A stretch of DNA of 51,371 nt. It comes from Sedimenticola sp. GTDB lineage: Bacteria > Pseudomonadota > Gammaproteobacteria > Chromatiales > Chromatiaceae. The stretch spans positions 1-51,371 of the forward strand of contig JALXAM010000062.1 of NCBI GenBank assembly GCA_026992075.1. Direction: 5' to 3'. Positions 20,960-29,549 of this stretch are shown one piece after another; the first letter of the stretch is position 1, and each line of letters begins with the position of its first letter. A model generated the notes under the pieces. It did no database searches and had not been told where the DNA came from. It was given only the letters and a program-made list of their open reading frames with translations. Made by a program: the position numbers and the translations under genes.

Positions 20960-21142
20960 TCAGGAATCGGCTTGCTCTCCTTCCTGCCTCCGGAAACGCC
21001 GGATCGCCCGCACCAACGCCTTTCGGCCCAGCCGCACCATTTCATGGTCGCCCTCGGCTTCCTTGATGCGGATGAACTGGCGCCAGAAGCGAACCTCCTC
21101 GTCCAGATCCTCCAGCTCGTCTCGTCGATCCTTTTCGCTCAT
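20960..21142 (-). CDS. Small charged helical protein, 60 aa
   Basis: The frame encodes MSEKDRRDELEDLDEEVRFW... with alternating acidic and basic helices (IRIKEAEGDHEM, RKALVRAIRRFRR). No family is recognised. It is probably a real gene because it fills the space between the tRNA terminator and the divergent acnA region with no competing frame, and its composition is protein-like. The ATG is at 21142; the ribosome site is weak. A perfect 14-bp palindrome lies 46 bases upstream and could be its operator. Confidence 0.5.
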   Translation of the reverse strand: MSEKDRRDELEDLDEEVRFWRQFIRIKEAEGDHEMVRLGRKALVRAIRRFRRQEGEQADS

Positions 21143-21187
21143 GTGTCCAAGTTAGCGCCTTTGTGCCAACATTGCTTGATAATACGC

Positions 21188-21201
21188 GTCAAAATTTTGA
21201 C
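21188..21201. promoter_or_regulatory. 14-bp perfect palindrome GTCAAAATTTTGAC
   Basis: The sequence GTCAAAATTTTGAC reads identically on both strands and lies in an AT-rich island (AATACGCGTCAAAATTTTGA) within otherwise GC-rich DNA, between the divergent 60-aa gene and acnA. Its form suits a dimeric regulator's operator; the regulator is unknown. It is 199 bases upstream of the acnA start. Confidence 0.45.
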
Positions 21202-21399
21202 CGATAATGCCATTTCGCTTCTCACTGCAGGTCCCAGGCTTACGCCTTCAGCCAAGGAACAGGTGAACCCTTCTCCTGCGCCGGGCTGTCCAGATCGCTC
21301 GCACCCGAATCGCTGTGGCTGGCACACAAGGTTTTCAGACAAGTCCTCGTGATAGAATCGGCGGCCGATTTTTTCGACCTGCCACGGAGTTCCGCATCC

Positions 21400-24066
<2,667 letters not shown>

Positions 24067-24079
24067 AGTAAGGAGTTTT

Positions 24080-24129
24080 GATCCCCTCACCCCCGGGCTA
24101 CCTGGGAGAGAGGCTGAGGTGAGGGGATC
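24080..24129. repeat. R1 repeat after acnA
   Basis: A single degenerate R1 palindrome: GATCCCCTCACCCCCGGG...GAGGTGAGGGGATC. The ends GATCCCCTCAC/GTGAGGGGATC are perfect inverted repeats. It lies 13 bases past the acnA stop and 31 bases before the DUF1538 operon, so it could act as a weak terminator or a 3'-end protecting hairpin. Confidence 0.8.
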
Positions 24130-24160
24130 GCCACCAACCTTCTGTTATGCTTGCAAAGCG

Positions 24161-24901
24161 ATGAACACCAGCTCCCTTCCCGCCTTCCTGCAAGCCCTGG
24201 CGCAGAGCCTCAAGGACCTGGCACCCATTCTGCTGGTCATCACTTTTTTCCAGGTGGGCGTCATCCACCAGCCACTGCCCGATCTGCTCGACATGCTGCT
24301 GGGCACCGGCTTCATCGTCATCGGACTCACCCTTTTCGTACAAGGACTGGAATCGGGCCTCTTTCCCATCGGCAGCGCCATGGCCCACTCCTTTGCCCGC
24401 AAGGGCAGCCTCACCTGGCTGCTCCTGTTTGCTTTCGCTCTGGGATTCGGCACGACGGTGGCGGAACCGGCACTCATCGCCGTAGCCGGTGAAGCCGCGG
24501 AGGTGGCGGCGGAAGGAGGGCTGATCGAAGATGACCCCGACGCCATGGCGCTCTATGCGCGGGGGCTGCGCTACACCGTAGCCCTCTCGGTGGGGATTGC
24601 CATCGCGCTGGGCGTACTGCGGATCGTGCGTGGCTGGCCGGTGCACTACCTCATCATCGGTGGCTACATTGGGGTCATCGTCATGACCCTGTTCGCGCCA
24701 CGGGAAATCATCGGTATCGCCTACGACTCGGGAGGCGTCACCACCTCCACCATCACCGTGCCCCTGGTCACCGCCCTGGGGGTGGGACTGGCTTCCTCCA
24801 TCAAGGGACGAAACCCCATGGTGGACGGCTTCGGCCTGATCGCCTTCGCCTCCCTCACCCCAATGATCTTCGTCATGGCTTACGGGATGCTGATCCGATG
24901 A
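24161..24901 (+). CDS. DUF1538-family membrane protein, first subunit
   Basis: An integral membrane protein of 246 aa with about six or seven hydrophobic segments. It has the DUF1538 signatures [18 protein letters not shown] and [20 protein letters not shown], and then [20 protein letters not shown]1538 proteins are thought to be transporters, but no substrate is established. The two halves of this system are separate, related genes: the same TTVAEPAL and [11 protein letters not shown] motifs recur in the next gene, so the pair probably forms a heterodimer or pseudo-symmetric complex. The ATG at 24161 follows the R1 repeat; its stop overlaps the next start (ATGA). Confidence 0.87.
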
Positions 24902-25692
24902 ATGTCCTGCTCGGTCTAGCTCATACCACCCTGGTCACGCTTCTGGACGTACTGCCCATCGCTCTCGTTCTCTTCGGTTTCCAGGTTTTTGTGCTGCGCC
25001 GCCCCATCCCGAACCTGAAAAGGATGCTACTGGGTTTTTTCTATGTGCTGGTCGGACTGGCTTTCTTCCTGGAAGGGCTGGATCTGGCACTCTTTCCCCT
25101 GGGCAGGGCCATGGCGCAACAACTCACCGATCCGGAATTCCTTCTGGGCCTCGGCGCCACCTCGGAACACATGGGGAATCTGCACTGGTCCGATTACTAC
25201 TGGGTCTACCTGTTCGCCTTCGCCATCGGCTTCGCCACCACGGTGGCGGAACCCGCCCTGCTGGCAGTGGCCATCAAGGCCAACGAGGTATCGGGCGGTG
25301 CCATCGGGATCTGGGGTCTGCGCAGTTCGGTGGCGCTGGGGGTGGCCATCGGCCTTGTGCTGGGCACCTGGCGCATCATCACCGGTTACCCTATCCACTG
25401 GTTCATCGTCGCCGGCTATGTGGTGGTGGTGATCCAAACCATTTTCGCGCCCCGCCTCATCGTGCCTCTGGCCTATGATTCGGGAGGCGTCACCACCTCC
25501 ACCGTCACCGTACCGCTGGTGGCGGCCCTGGGGCTGGGGCTGGCCAGCCATGTACCGGGACGCAGCCCCATGCTGGACGGCTTCGGGCTCATCGCCTTTG
25601 CCAGCCTGTTCCCAATGATGACAGTGATGGCCCACGCCCAGATCGCCCAATGGCGCGCAAAACGCAAGATTTCCATCCAGGGAGAACACTGA
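24898..25692 (+). CDS. DUF1538-family membrane protein, second subunit
   Basis: A 264-aa membrane protein paralogous to the upstream gene: [39 protein letters not shown] and [20 protein letters not shown] are shared. It also has a more hydrophilic loop ([20 protein letters not shown]) and a basic cytoplasmic tail. The ATGA overlap with the first gene implies coupled translation, hence equal amounts. It is followed by a PII-like and a CBS-domain gene, suggesting regulation by a nucleotide or nitrogen/energy signal. Confidence 0.87.
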
Positions 25693-25693
25693 C

Positions 25694-26044
25694 ATGCATT
25701 TCAAGCTCATCGTCACCTTCGTGGAAGACGACAAGACCGACCGCATCATGGAAGCGGCCCGGGAAGCGGGAGCCACCGGCGCCACCATCATCAACAACGC
25801 ACGGGGCGAGGGTCTCAAGGGCAGCAAGACTTTTTTCGGCCTGCAACTGGAGACCCAGCGGGACGTGCTCATGTTCCTGGTGGAAGAGCACATGGCCAGG
25901 GAGATCCTGGAGACCATCTGCAAGGTGGGAGAATTCGATGCCAGACCCGGCACCGGCATCGCTTTTCAGATCGACGTGGAGGATGCCCTGGGTATCAGTC
26001 AGCAAGCCAACGTCCTCATCGAGAAAGTGGAGAAAGAGCTGTGA
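25694..26044 (+). CDS. PII-like signalling protein
   Basis: A 116-aa protein with the PII (GlnB) ferredoxin-like fold pattern: MHFKLIVTFVEDDKTDRIMEAAREAGATGATII, then a short T-loop-like segment (NNARGEGLKGSKTFFG), then DVLMFLVEEHMAREILETI and GTGIAFQIDVEDALGI. It lacks the canonical uridylylated Tyr and the classical T-loop sequence, so it belongs with the diverse PII-like group associated with transporters. It starts 1 base after the second DUF1538 stop. Ligand and target are unknown; binding to the CBS or DUF1538 partner is inferred from gene order. Confidence 0.85.
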   Translation: MHFKLIVTFVEDDKTDRIMEAAREAGATGATIINNARGEGLKGSKTFFGLQLETQRDVLMFLVEEHMAREILETICKVGEFDARPGTGIAFQIDVEDALGISQQANVLIEKVEKEL

Positions 26045-26445
26045 GCGAACGCAAGCGAATCCGCGTCCGTGACGTGATGAAAGAGAAATTCGACCTGGTG
26101 CATGGCCTGGCCACCGTGGCCGAGGCCCTGCAGCAGATGGCCCACGTGGAGACCAAGTGCCTGATCGTGGAAAAGCGCCACGAGCATGACGAGTACGGTT
26201 TGGTAATGCTCTCCGACATCTCCAAGAAGGTGCTGGCCAAGGACCGGGCACCGGAGCGGGTGAACATCTACGAGATCATGGCCAAGCCGGTGATCACCGT
26301 GGATCCCGAGATGGACATCCGTTACTGTGCCCGCCTCTTCGAACGTTTCGGCATCAGCCGCGCCCCGGTGGTGGAGAACCGAAGGATCATCGGCATCGTC
26401 AGCCACACCGACATGGTGCTGCGGGGCCTGGTGAAGCTGCTCTGA
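26041..26445 (+). CDS. CBS-domain-pair protein
   Basis: A 134-aa protein with two CBS repeats. The first begins VRDVMKEKFDLVHGLATVAEALQQM, with LIVEKRHEHDEYGLVMLSD, and the second IYEIMAKPVITVDPEMDIRYCARLF with VVENRRIIGIVSHTDMV. CBS pairs usually bind adenine nucleotides as energy sensors and act on channels or transporters. The GTG start overlaps the end of the PII-like gene (GTGA). It ends the DUF1538-DUF1538-PII-CBS unit; the next feature is the tRNA-Asn promoter. Confidence 0.9.
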   Translation: MSERKRIRVRDVMKEKFDLVHGLATVAEALQQMAHVETKCLIVEKRHEHDEYGLVMLSDISKKVLAKDRAPERVNIYEIMAKPVITVDPEMDIRYCARLFERFGISRAPVVENRRIIGIVSHTDMVLRGLVKLL

Positions 26446-26464
26446 GGCCGCCGCCAGCCCGCTA

Positions 26465-26493
26465 TTGACCTGCCGATGCACGGAAAGTAAGAT
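26465..26493 (+). promoter_or_regulatory. Predicted promoter of tRNA-Asn
   Basis: TTGACC, a 17-base spacer, then TAAGAT, 17 bases before the tRNA 5' end. The discriminator downstream is GC-rich (ACGCGCC), as in stringently controlled stable-RNA promoters. Both hexamers and the spacing are near consensus. Confidence 0.8.
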
Positions 26494-26509
26494 ACGCGCC
26501 TCGACCTAT

Positions 26510-26585
26510 TCCGCCATAGCTCAGTTGGTAGAGCAACGGACTGTTAATCCGTGGGTCGCTGGTTCGAGCCCAGCTGGCGGAGCCA
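26510..26585 (+). tRNA. tRNA-Asn (GTT)
   Basis: A 76-base cloverleaf with acceptor stem TCCGCCA/TGGCGGA, anticodon loop CTGTTAATC (GTT), T arm CTGG TTCGAGC CCAG and encoded CCA (discriminator G). It is followed by a terminator at 26605. Confidence 0.96.
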
Positions 26586-26604
26586 AACATTTCAAGGACT
26601 TGCG

Positions 26605-26632
26605 AAACCCCACCATCCGGTGGGGTTTTTTT
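26605..26632 (+). terminator. Rho-independent terminator after tRNA-Asn
   Basis: The hairpin AAACCCCACC-ATCC-GGTGGGGTTT continues into a run of T. It lies 20 bases after the CCA end of the tRNA. Confidence 0.9.
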
Positions 26633-26709
26633 AATGGGACGCCTCTTCAGGCCAATAGGGTGCATTCGCACGATATTGCCATAAACCCTGCATACGCAGG
26701 AGAAAAGAG

Positions 26710-27231
26710 ATGGCGGCCCAAGCGCGCGCAATCGCCGGAGAAGGCCCGGGTGCTGGCCGAGACCACGTTGAACGCAGCCAGGGGGCTCGGCGTCACCCAG
26801 TCGGAGCTGCGGAAGATCGTCGGCAAGCACCCGAGCAACATCCGGCGCCACGGGATCGACCCGGAGAGCAAGAGCGGTGAACTGGTGCTGCTGGTCCGGC
26901 TCTACCGGAGCCTGTTCGCCCTTCTCGGTGGCGACACCGGGGCCATGCGCCACTGGATGCGCACTGCCAACCGGGACACCGGCGGCGTTCCCACCGAGCA
27001 GGTCCGTACCGTCCAGGGAGCCTCTGATCTAATCCTGGACGAAGCAGATTGTACTCCTCTGGTTCGAGTACAAGGCAAAGTTCGCAGCCAATAGCAGGCT
27101 ATTGGCGAGAACTTCAACGCAGTAATCGGGCCGGAGGGGGACAAGATGCGAGTTCATGGATCAGATCAGAGGCTCCCCAGGATCTCGCCGAAGCAGTGGC
27201 CTACCTCGATGCCCTCCAGGGGAGCCCGTGA
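26710..27231 (+). pseudogene. Broken DUF2384/MbcA-ParS-type antitoxin gene, split by element B
   Basis: The frame encodes EKARVLAETTLNAARGLGVT, QSELRKIVGKHPSNIRRHG, a VLLVRLYRSLFALLGGD helix and MRHWMRTANRDTGGVP, matching DUF2384-type antitoxins of RES- or similar toxin systems. A 160-bp palindromic element (27017-27176) interrupts the gene after TVQ. Joining the flanking sequence and dropping one copy of the CCAG target gives VRTVQDLAEAVAYLDALQ, the expected family tail, ending at 27231. The upstream end is also unclear: the best ribosome site (AGGAGAAAAGAG, ATG at 26710) is one base out of phase with the rest, with a GCGCGCGC tract between. Without the element the product would be about 120 residues. 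Confidence 0.7.
27017..27176. mobile_element. 160-bp palindromic MITE, copy B, TSD CCAG
   Basis: This non-coding element is flanked by perfect 4-bp direct repeats CCAG (27013-27016 and 27177-27180). Its inverted termini are GGAGCCTCTGATCTAATCC and, on the other strand, GGAGCCTCTGATCTGATCC. The whole element is an imperfect palindrome centred on CCAATAGCAGGCTATTGG, so the RNA or single-stranded DNA can form one hairpin of about 78 pairs with mismatches. It is near-identical to copy C at 37170-37329. It interrupts an antitoxin gene. No transposase is encoded. Confidence 0.85.
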
Positions 27232-27305
27232 ACCCCTGGCGGGAGCTGGTGCGTAACAGGCCACAGGAGACCCTCAAGGGCACCTTGCCCCTCCCATCGC
27301 CCTGA
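27228..27305 (+). pseudogene. 25-codon remnant overlapping the antitoxin stop
   Basis: A short frame (VNPWRELVRNRPQETLKGTL...) starts with GTG overlapping the antitoxin stop as GTGA, a typical toxin-antitoxin junction, but ends after 25 codons. It may be the truncated start of the cognate toxin or second gene. No toxin family can be named. Confidence 0.35.
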
Positions 27306-27387
27306 AACACGAAATCCTCCGCAGTCAGCGGCGGGGAAGGCTTCGACCCCGTGGTTGAGTGACCGTGCGGGCGGGAGCCACGCCCCT

Positions 27388-27939
27388 TCAGACCGCCAGC
27401 AGGTGCTCCCGGTAATAGGCCAGTTCGGCAATGGACTCGCGGATATCGTCCATGGCCAGGTGGCTGTTTTTCTTCTCGAAGCCATCGACGATGTCCGGCT
27501 TCCAGCGTCTTGCCAGCTCCTTCAGCGTGCTTACGTCGAGATTGCGGTAATGAAAATGGGCCTCCAGCCGCGGCATCAGCCGCGCCAGGAAACGGCGGTC
27601 CTGGCAGATGCTGTTGCCGCACATGGGCGATTCCCCCGGTGGCACCCACTGGCGCAGGAAGGCCAGGGTCGCCTCCTCGGCGCGAGCCAGATCGTAACTG
27701 CTGTTGCGCACCCGCTCCACCAGGCCCGACTGCCCATGCTGACGGGTGTTCCACTCGTCCATCTCCATGAGCACCGTTTCTGGCTGGTGGATGGCGATCA
27801 CCGGCCCTTCTGCCAACACCTCGAGGTTGTTGTCGGTGATTATGGTGGCGATCTCGATGATCTGGTCCCGGAAAGGGTCCAGACCGGTCATCTCCAGATC
27901 GATCCAGATGAGGTTGTCCTTGGAAGGCTGGGGCTGCAT
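27388..27939 (-). CDS. orn: Oligoribonuclease
   Basis: A DEDDh 3'-5' exonuclease that degrades 2-5-mer RNAs, including pGpG from c-di-GMP breakdown. The 183-aa protein has [20 protein letters not shown] (DxE motif), [20 protein letters not shown], and the C-terminal motif with [18 protein letters not shown] (H-x4-D). The ATG at 27939 is the family start. It diverges from an M48 protease gene with 63 bases between starts. Orn links functionally to the GGDEF-EAL protein in this window, which would produce pGpG. Confidence 0.95.
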
Positions 27940-28002
27940 GAAATTTTCCCTGGGCGAATAAGGGGGGCATTGTACCCGCGCCGGGCTAAAATGGGAGTCC
28001 TC

Positions 28003-29274
28003 ATGAACACCTTCACCCTCCTCTTTCTCGCCGCCCTGGCCGCCAGCCTGTTGCTGGAGTACTGGCTGCTGTGGCGCCAGGCCCGCTCGGTGAGAAGCCA
28101 CCGGAATGCGGTGCCCCATCCCTTCGAGCAGCGCATCACCCTGGAGCAACACCAGAAGGCGGCGAACTACACCCTGGCCCAGATCCAATACGCAAGAGTG
28201 AGCCGGCTGATGGACGCGCTGCTTCTGCTGGGGTGGACCCTGGGCGGTGGCCTGGAGCTTCTCCATCGGCTCTGGCTGACCAGCGGACTGCCGGAACTCT
28301 GGCAGGGCGTGGGTCTGCTGCTCTCCCTGCTGCTGATCAGCGCGGTGCTGCAGCTGCCCCTGGAGCTGTGGCACACCTTCGGCATCGAGGCCCGCTTCGG
28401 CTTCAACCGCACCACGCCCCGCCGCTTCCTGCTGGACAAGCTGCTCGGCGGACTCCTGCTGCTGGTGCTGGGCGCACCGTTGGCGGCGCTGGTACTGTGG
28501 CTCATGACCCGGGCCGGCGACGCCTGGTGGCTGTGGGCCTGGGGTGCCTGGATACTGTTCACCCTGTTCATCACCTGGGCTTGGCCCACCTTCATCGCGC
28601 CGCTCTTCAACCGCTTCACGCCACTCCAAGACCAGGCGTTGAAGAAACGGCTGGAGGCCCTGCTGCAACGTTGCGGTTTTCGCAGCAACGGCATGTTCGT
28701 GATGGACGGCTCCCGCCGTTCCAGCCATGGCAACGCCTATTTCACCGGGCTCGGCCGCAACAAGCGCATCGTCTTCTTCGACACCCTGCTGCAGAGCCTG
28801 GAACCGGAGGAGATCGAAGCGGTGCTGGCCCACGAGCTGGGCCATTTCCGCCTGCACCATGTGCGCAACAACCTGTTGCTCACCGGGGTGCTGTCACTGG
28901 CCGCACTGGCGCTGCTGGGCTGGCTACTGCACCAGTCCTGGTTCTTCCAGGGACTGGGGGTGAGCCACGCCACCCCGGCTACCGGCCTGGCGCTGTTCCT
29001 GCTGGTGCTGCCGGTGTTCGGCAGTTTTCTCTCCCCTCTGTTCAATGCATTCTCCCGCCGCCACGAGTTCCAGGCCGATGCCTTCGCGGCGCAACAAGCC
29101 AGCGGCCAGGCACTGGTGGACGCCCTGGTGAAACTCTACCGGGACAATGCCAGCACCCTCACCCCGGATCCGCTCTATTCCGCCTTCCACCACAGCCATC
29201 CGCCAGCCGCTGTGCGCATCGCCGCTTTATCTTCTAGAATCGAATCAGACGAACCCGGGAAAACAGCACCATGA
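28003..29274 (+). CDS. M48-family (Ste24/CAAX-type) membrane metalloprotease
   Basis: A 423-aa integral membrane protease. The N-terminal half has several transmembrane helices ([31 protein letters not shown]) and the Ste24-like block [21 protein letters not shown]. The zinc site HELGH (in [15 protein letters not shown], near residue 277) and a downstream [14 protein letters not shown] Glu ligand complete the active centre. The ATG at 28003 has a GGGAG ribosome site. Bacterial members are proposed to clear damaged envelope proteins. Its stop overlaps the next start (ATGA), coupling it to a cytochrome c gene and rsgA. Confidence 0.93.
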
Positions 29275-29549
29275 ACAGGATCCTGCCCGCCCTCTGTCTC
29301 TTGTCTCCGGCACTGGCCGCGCAAGCCACGGAAGGCGATTTCCACGCCGAAACCTTCCACCGGCAGCACTGCACCAGCTGTCACGACTCCAGTGTCTACA
29401 CCAGGGAAAACCGACGCGTTCATTCCCGCCAGCAACTGGAGTCCCAGGTGCGCATGTGCGACGCCAATCTTGGTATCAAGTTGTACGATGACGACATCCA
29501 GGCGCTTACCGAGTACCTGGACCGCCATTACTATCACTTCACCCCCTGA
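29271..29549 (+). CDS. Small exported cytochrome c-type heme protein
   Basis: A 92-aa periplasmic protein with a signal peptide (residues 1-19) and one heme attachment motif CTSCH at residues 34-38 (HCTSCHDSSVYTR). A likely distal Met lies near residue 61 (QVRMCDANLG), though its place is unproven. Such mono-heme proteins serve as electron carriers or assembly factors. It shares an ATGA overlap with the M48 protease gene. Confidence 0.87.
   Translation: MNRILPALCLLSPALAAQATEGDFHAETFHRQHCTSCHDSSVYTRENRRVHSRQQLESQVRMCDANLGIKLYDDDIQALTEYLDRHYYHFTP

Follow-up and report, generated by a model that had tools for sequence, protein, structure and literature searches.

The locus studied here raises the question of whether two membrane proteins of the DUF1538 family, encoded in Sedimenticola sp. 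together with a PII-like protein and a CBS protein, form a transporter that is controlled by its own sensors. The four-gene set, DUF1538-DUF1538-PII-like-CBS, lies on the + strand at positions 24161-26445 of the window, i.e., the whole 51,371-nucleotide stretch that was analysed, and reading frames and Pfam matches showed that its genes overlap or abut. In the reading that we prefer, with a probability of about 55%, the four genes encode an UmpAB-type antiporter that has a PII-like protein of its own as its gate, with the CBS protein as a second input.

Table 1. Positions in the window of the four genes and of the short T-loop region.
Feature	Position	Strand	Evidence
UmpA-like DUF1538 membrane subunit, 246 aa	24161..24901	+	PF07556 231.6 bits; NF041627 best, 380.6 bits
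UmpB-like DUF1538 membrane subunit, 264 aa	24898..25692	+	PF07556 228.6 bits; NF041628 best, 346.2 bits
PII-like protein, 116 aa, proposed transporter gate	25694..26044	+	PF00543 47.6 bits; PII fold model
Short T-loop region, PII-like residues 40-57, GLKGSKTFFGLQLETQRD	25811..25864	+	Conservation over 60 rows
Two-CBS-domain protein, 134 aa, proposed nucleotide sensor	26041..26445	+	PF00571 66.8 bits, two stretches

As shown in Table 1, the genes are tightly packed. The umpA-like and umpB-like genes meet in an ATGA overlap, the PII-like gene starts one base past the umpB-like stop, and the CBS gene has its GTG start inside a GTGA overlap with the PII-like gene. Coordinates and Pfam thus agree with the operon and the three junctions described in the initial annotation. 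The upstream neighbour is an aconitase gene (Pfam) ending at 24066, and the downstream neighbour is tRNA-Asn (26510-26585); just 3' of the latter, positions 26711-27094 encode Xre-like HTH and Xre/MbcA/ParS antitoxin C-terminal domains. Upstream of the umpA-like gene, the region 24070-24160 folds at -37 kcal/mol (z -2.45), and between this gene and the aconitase gene there is a hairpin (24080-24129) with arms of the GATCCCCTCACCC type. Since the window holds 17 copies of this motif at <=2 mismatches, against 3.75 expected, the hairpin is probably a dispersed repeat. No riboswitch that would name the ion was found at gathering score in 14 related loci and window positions 21000-29500, where nothing matched except glmS, at the edge of locus L265, and the tRNA-Asn.

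Both membrane proteins carry PF07556 (DUF1538; E 8e-69 and 6.7e-68, cut-off 22.6 bits). They are 53% identical and have in common TTVAEPAL and a second, 11-residue motif, as expected from the earlier description of two related proteins. Each finds its best NCBIfam model in the corresponding Ump protein, UmpA or UmpB, and both score under the equivalog cut-offs of these models (490 and 500 bits, respectively), so that on these scores the pair is called UmpAB-like, not UmpAB. The UmpA cut-off was passed by 0/369 genomes of the class sample and 0/24 chosen genomes and therefore presumably marks a narrower, Halomonas-like clade; the linkage surveys for PII and CBS reported below lie outside this experimentally tested clade.

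The function of such a pair has a published precedent. Co-expression in E. coli of the Halomonas zhaodongensis genes umpA and umpB, which likewise overlap and encode paralogous DUF1538 subunits, gave a hetero-dimer in the membranes and pH-dependent Na+(Li+, K+)/H+ antiport, with sub-millimolar K0.5 for Na+, K+, and Li+ in vesicle assays (PMC5484666). This evidence comes from one group using antiporter-less E. coli and from clones without PII or CBS genes, the insert as described ending with umpB (PMC5484666). The main text of that paper makes no mention of P-II, PII, GlnB, 'nitrogen regul', CBS, or cystathionine. The two-subunit transporter predicted in the initial annotation is in line with the UmpAB hetero-dimer, and the statement that no substrate was established does not hold for the family, for which exchange of Na+, K+, and Li+ against H+ has been published by that one group. 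Transferring the function from this single published homologue, we regard it as likely that the window pair performs cation/H+ antiport.

In the structure model of the UmpA-like subunit (pLDDT 93.4), the helices are broken at residues 101-102 and 194-198. Glu102 lies inside the first break and Asp189 five residues ahead of the second, and each was kept in 346/347 DUF1538 domains (not deduplicated); Arg137, Arg217, and Asp222 were variable in the divergent set. The Glu102/Asp189 pair is thus a putative ion/proton site. A Foldseek search with this model returned no fold relative at E <=0.001 in PDB or BFVD (best E among solved folds 0.58). An internal three-helix repeat, suspected from the two breaks, was not supported by profile-profile comparison of the halves.

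The third gene product matches the P-II family (PF00543, E 2.2e-12, cut-off 25 bits). Its model has the PII fold (pLDDT 82.3, loop blocks 56-73), and the 50 best PDB fold matches listed by Foldseek were all PII or PII-like proteins. To see which ligand residues are kept, 60 rows of its clade were aligned with the two canonical PII proteins that the window genome encodes elsewhere, both of which have Lys90, Arg101, and Arg103. In GlnK/PII proteins, ATP contacts include Thr29, Gln39, Gly87, Lys90, Arg101, and Arg103, and 2-oxoglutarate is contacted by Arg9, Gln39, Gly41, and Lys58 (PMC8395244). In the PII-like clade, the Lys90 column holds Ile (58 rows) or Met (2), the Arg101 column holds Gly in 60/60, Arg103 is kept in 1/60, the Lys58 column holds Phe, Leu, or Met in 60/60, and Gln39 is kept in 6/60. 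Because these contact residues are mostly lost, canonical ATP/2-oxoglutarate sensing by the PII-like protein appears unlikely. The nucleotide cleft is still present, with Thr29, Gly35, Gly37, Gly87, and Gly89 kept in 60/60 rows. The initial suggestion that the protein senses adenine nucleotides is therefore weakened by the loss of the basic residues, although the cleft is conserved.

The T-loop gave a similarly divided answer. The protein had been described as lacking the usual T-loop, and its loop is indeed shorter than the canonical one and without the uridylylation site Tyr51 (Tyr in 0/60 rows, Thr in 47/60); yet the loop belongs to the best conserved parts of the protein within the clade, with residues 40, 49, and 57 identical in 60/60 rows and residues 46, 47, and 52 in 59/60. 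Model confidence in this region is low. The type of T-loop matches the type of DUF1538 protein, even when two kinds stand side by side in one genome (L069, L042), and other T-loop types accompany fused, long DUF1538 proteins. Such conservation in sequence is suggestive of transporter binding or gating.

The fourth gene product bears out the CBS pair reported after the PII-like gene, with PF00571 matching twice (E 2.1e-18). Paired CBS nucleotide sensors carry the ribose motif G-h-h-[ST]-x-x-D. At the corresponding positions, CBS2 has S/T in 40/47 rows and D in 28/47, and CBS1 has D in 46/47 and Thr at the S/T position in 4/47, the rest of the latter column being only partly listed. The closest solved chain is the CBS-CP12 protein 5nmu (9.1e-27), whose two CBS domains align over residues 8-128; unlike it, the window protein is too short to accommodate a CP12 tail, and its gene appears to be coupled to the PII-like gene. 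The PII and CBS genes overlap by 4 bases in 61 of the 73 named loci (defined below) that have both, which suggests translational coupling. That the CBS protein is a nucleotide sensor acting on the DUF1538-PII system is a tentative assignment, for which we would give slightly less than even odds.

The arrangement was then surveyed across genomes. DUF1538 was present in 126/398 sampled Pseudomonadota genomes, and 79 of these 126 provided 82 DUF1538 gene clusters, the window included. With a PII-like gene on the same strand <=400 bases downstream as the linkage criterion, PII directly followed DUF1538 in 77/82 clusters, and CBS came next after PII in 53/82. CBS was missing in the other 29, one of which is on a contig that ends too soon to tell. 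The five clusters without downstream PII were L038, L057, L066, L070, and the second cluster of L042, which has its PII gene on the 5' side; at L124, L191, and L226, PII reading frames are present although outside the gap rule. A second, named set consisted of the 80 best of 577 confirmed matches, with 67-78% identity to the window UmpA, and so gives depth, not breadth. In four of these 80 loci the sequence stops before the second DUF1538 gene is complete; among the best 80 matches, PII followed DUF1538 in all 76 loci readable downstream, and CBS followed in 73 of the 74 with room for it, the exception being Desulfopila aestuarii (L188). Divergent or extra DUF1538 loci had PII in 11/13 cases, with L221 lacking PII and L227 ending too soon. 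L103 and L228 are stretches without sequence content.

The PII linkage also reached beyond the Pseudomonadota. A tblastn search with UmpA matched nine plasmid records, six of which were examined; five had gene tables, and the sixth (Acetoanaerobium) came without one. In 5/5 records with gene tables, from Methylocystis, Chelativorans, and the Clostridia Paraclostridium, Vescimonas, and Peptoclostridium, a gene labelled 'P-II family nitrogen regulator' came next after DUF1538, and an annotated CBS gene came next in none. PII adjacency thus extends from Pseudomonadota to Clostridia at ~30% DUF1538 identity. In the three Clostridia, DUF1538 takes the form of a single protein of ~500 aa, and the product of the PII gene, 222-224 aa long, matches the clade profile twice; Pfam found two stretches in one of the three.

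Co-occurrence in genomes gave a consistent picture. The PII clade profile was found in 105/398 genomes at E <=1e-15; both families occurred in 100 genomes, DUF1538 only in 26, the PII clade only in 5, and neither in 267 (Fisher p ~3e-62, a value that ignores shared ancestry). Several of the 26 DUF1538-only genomes have a more divergent PII adjoining DUF1538 (L216-L220, L222-L226). The DUF1538 pair and the PII-CBS pair are on different contigs in genomes G084 and G116, as are the DUF1538 pair and the PII gene in G093. No fifth conserved gene stands out in the named loci, where the commonest flanking family, an Amidase_2 protein (Pfam on one member), reaches only 17 loci, and the reading frames searched included no fusion of DUF1538 with PII. 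Because it recurs in most loci examined, the four-gene arrangement is more than chance. Co-conservation in relatives, which the initial annotation had taken as decisive, was thus strongly confirmed for PII, plasmid records included; for CBS it stood within part of the Pseudomonadota.

Some loci depart from this plan. In L216-L220, two divergent PII genes come after a fused DUF1538 (~595 aa), and a SpoIIE-type phosphatase gene follows the PII genes in L216, L217, L219, and L220, with none in the L218 stretch; in L221 the phosphatase gene is kept, with no PII gene between. In L223 (3781-4164) and L225 (4924-5316), a fused DUF1538 and PII are followed, in the place of CBS, by a protein of 128-131 aa without a significant Pfam match. 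A Wenzhouxiangella MAG (L166, 5267-6009) has two tandem PII genes between umpB and CBS.

PII paralogs of the same clade were also found away from DUF1538. We had considered that the T-loop motif might decay where PII does not adjoin DUF1538, and this failed: paralogs at 20 such loci kept 12-14 of the 14 motif positions. An exclusive partnership of PII and DUF1538 is therefore disfavoured. Five genomes have a clade PII with the same loop and no detected DUF1538; two of these, G129 and G181, are 75-76% complete. In five of the 20 unlinked loci (L199-L203), the paralog directly adjoins an ETF-QO gene, the ETF-QO proteins being 49.5-86% identical to the L200 copy. In L200 an SH3-domain protein lies on the other side of the PII paralog, and in the L199 genome DUF1538 was undetected. 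ETF-QO is a possible second target of the clade PII family. Other neighbours of unlinked paralogs, in some genomes, are MutS, Dus, and malic enzyme-PTA.

Two transporter-PII pairs suggest how the window system might work. In GlnK-AmtB and SbtB-SbtA, the T-loop enters the cytoplasmic opening of the transporter (PMC8395244, PMC8352866). GlnK, a PII family member, plugs AmtB with its T-loop (PMC8395244), and the same mode is proposed for the window protein; the differences are that the window clade is without Lys90, Arg101, and Tyr51, and without Arg103 in 59/60 rows, and that AmtB and DUF1538 are different transporter families. SbtA, a cyanobacterial Na+/bicarbonate symporter, shares with the window system an operon of a transporter and a PII-like gene, and the SbtB T-loop inserts into SbtA (PMC8352866). 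SbtA is unrelated to the DUF1538 transporter, and SbtB and the window PII-like protein are only distantly related (Foldseek rank 38; sequence E 0.55-0.56).

By analogy, the four genes would form one system, built around a hetero-dimer of the UmpAB type that would exchange monovalent cations (Na+, K+, Li+) for H+, with the two helix breaks as the passage and Glu102 and Asp189 of each subunit taking part. Antiporter activity would be set by the PII-like protein, which, like GlnK on AmtB and SbtB on SbtA, would dock at the cytoplasmic face and push its short, conserved T-loop into the transporter. A further, adenine-nucleotide (energy) input would come from the translationally coupled CBS protein, with either the PII-like protein or the antiporter as its target. 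The model builds on gene order, family membership, co-conservation, the conserved acidic residues, and the loss of canonical PII ligand residues, all of which were seen directly. We infer docking, gating and its direction, the ion site, and the ligands, and the gating proposal is strengthened by the match of T-loop type to DUF1538 type and by the breadth of the PII linkage. PII docking and gating of the antiporter seem to us fairly likely on this analogy.

A different natural substrate would keep the PII gate and change what passes through it: the DUF1538 pair could transport something else, e.g., a different ion or a compound of carbon or nitrogen, with monovalent cation/H+ exchange as a side activity in antiporter-less E. 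coli. The well-known PII-gated transporters do carry ammonium or bicarbonate (PMC8395244, PMC8352866), the window proteins fall under both equivalog cut-offs, and later literature that treats UmpAB as an antiporter, in the papers examined, uses it as a control or argues by homology. We nevertheless consider this reading rather unlikely, given the sub-millimolar K0.5 values for Na+, K+, and Li+ in UmpAB vesicles (PMC5484666), a genome-to-pH study that lists DUF1538 with K+ and Na+ transport families among key pH-adaptation genes (PMC13255231), and the UmpAB homologs reported in salt-adapted cable bacteria (PMC10030654, PMC12093952).

Alternatively, PII and CBS may share the expression of the antiporter while having other targets, such as enzymes or transcription, so that the operon ties expression only. 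In some genomes, clade paralogs do adjoin unrelated genes such as ETF-QO, MutS, Dus, and malic enzyme-PTA, with the T-loop motif kept even in genomes where DUF1538 is undetected; yet PII stays beside DUF1538 from Pseudomonadota to Clostridia whereas the remaining neighbours differ, with no flanking family in more than 17 named loci, and the loop type follows the DUF1538 type, which together make independent targets improbable. A further possibility is that the PII-like protein controls the export of K+ or Na+ as a PstA/DarA-type receptor for c-di-AMP. Receptors of c-di-AMP include PII-like proteins (PMC4475381, PMC4316997), and this nucleotide is tied to potassium in Gram-positives (PMC8822347). 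A PF02457 synthase occurs in 5/24 DUF1538 genomes tested, but is absent from the other 19, among them the window genome, which is 99.98% complete; without that synthase in the window genome, c-di-AMP is disfavoured as the ligand here, and we hold such a receptor to be very improbable.

The reading of a PII-gated antiporter thus places the system with transporter-PII pairs like those of GlnK and SbtB, and no description of such a pair was found for its transporter family. The parts are already known, and automatic annotation already labels the plasmid DUF1538 neighbour 'P-II family nitrogen regulator'; the sensor pairing DUF1538-PII-like(-CBS) looks new, with no description of the DUF1538-PII pairing found in the open-licence PMC literature, preprints excluded. 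More broadly, these genes may belong to a widespread class of Na+(K+)/H+ antiporters under PII gating that spans Pseudomonadota and Clostridia. With T-loop types of its own and a ligand other than ATP/2-oxoglutarate, the PII subfamily would tie the control of cytoplasmic pH and Na+ to metabolism, joined in part of the Pseudomonadota by a coupled CBS energy sensor; we put this forward as a possibility not quite as probable as its opposite.

Discussions of Na+/H+ antiporters mostly name pH and the transported ions as what sets their activity. If the PII-like protein is a gate, a metabolite signal would act directly on ion and pH homeostasis, as it does on ammonium and bicarbonate uptake, and the conservation of the sensor pairing in distant bacteria suggests that a metabolic signal tunes the balance of salt and pH. 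The published UmpAB pH profile may then be that of the ungated enzyme, because the clones were without PII or CBS genes. Since DUF1538 is common, occurring in nearly a third (126/398) of the sampled Pseudomonadota genomes, the answer would apply to many bacteria.
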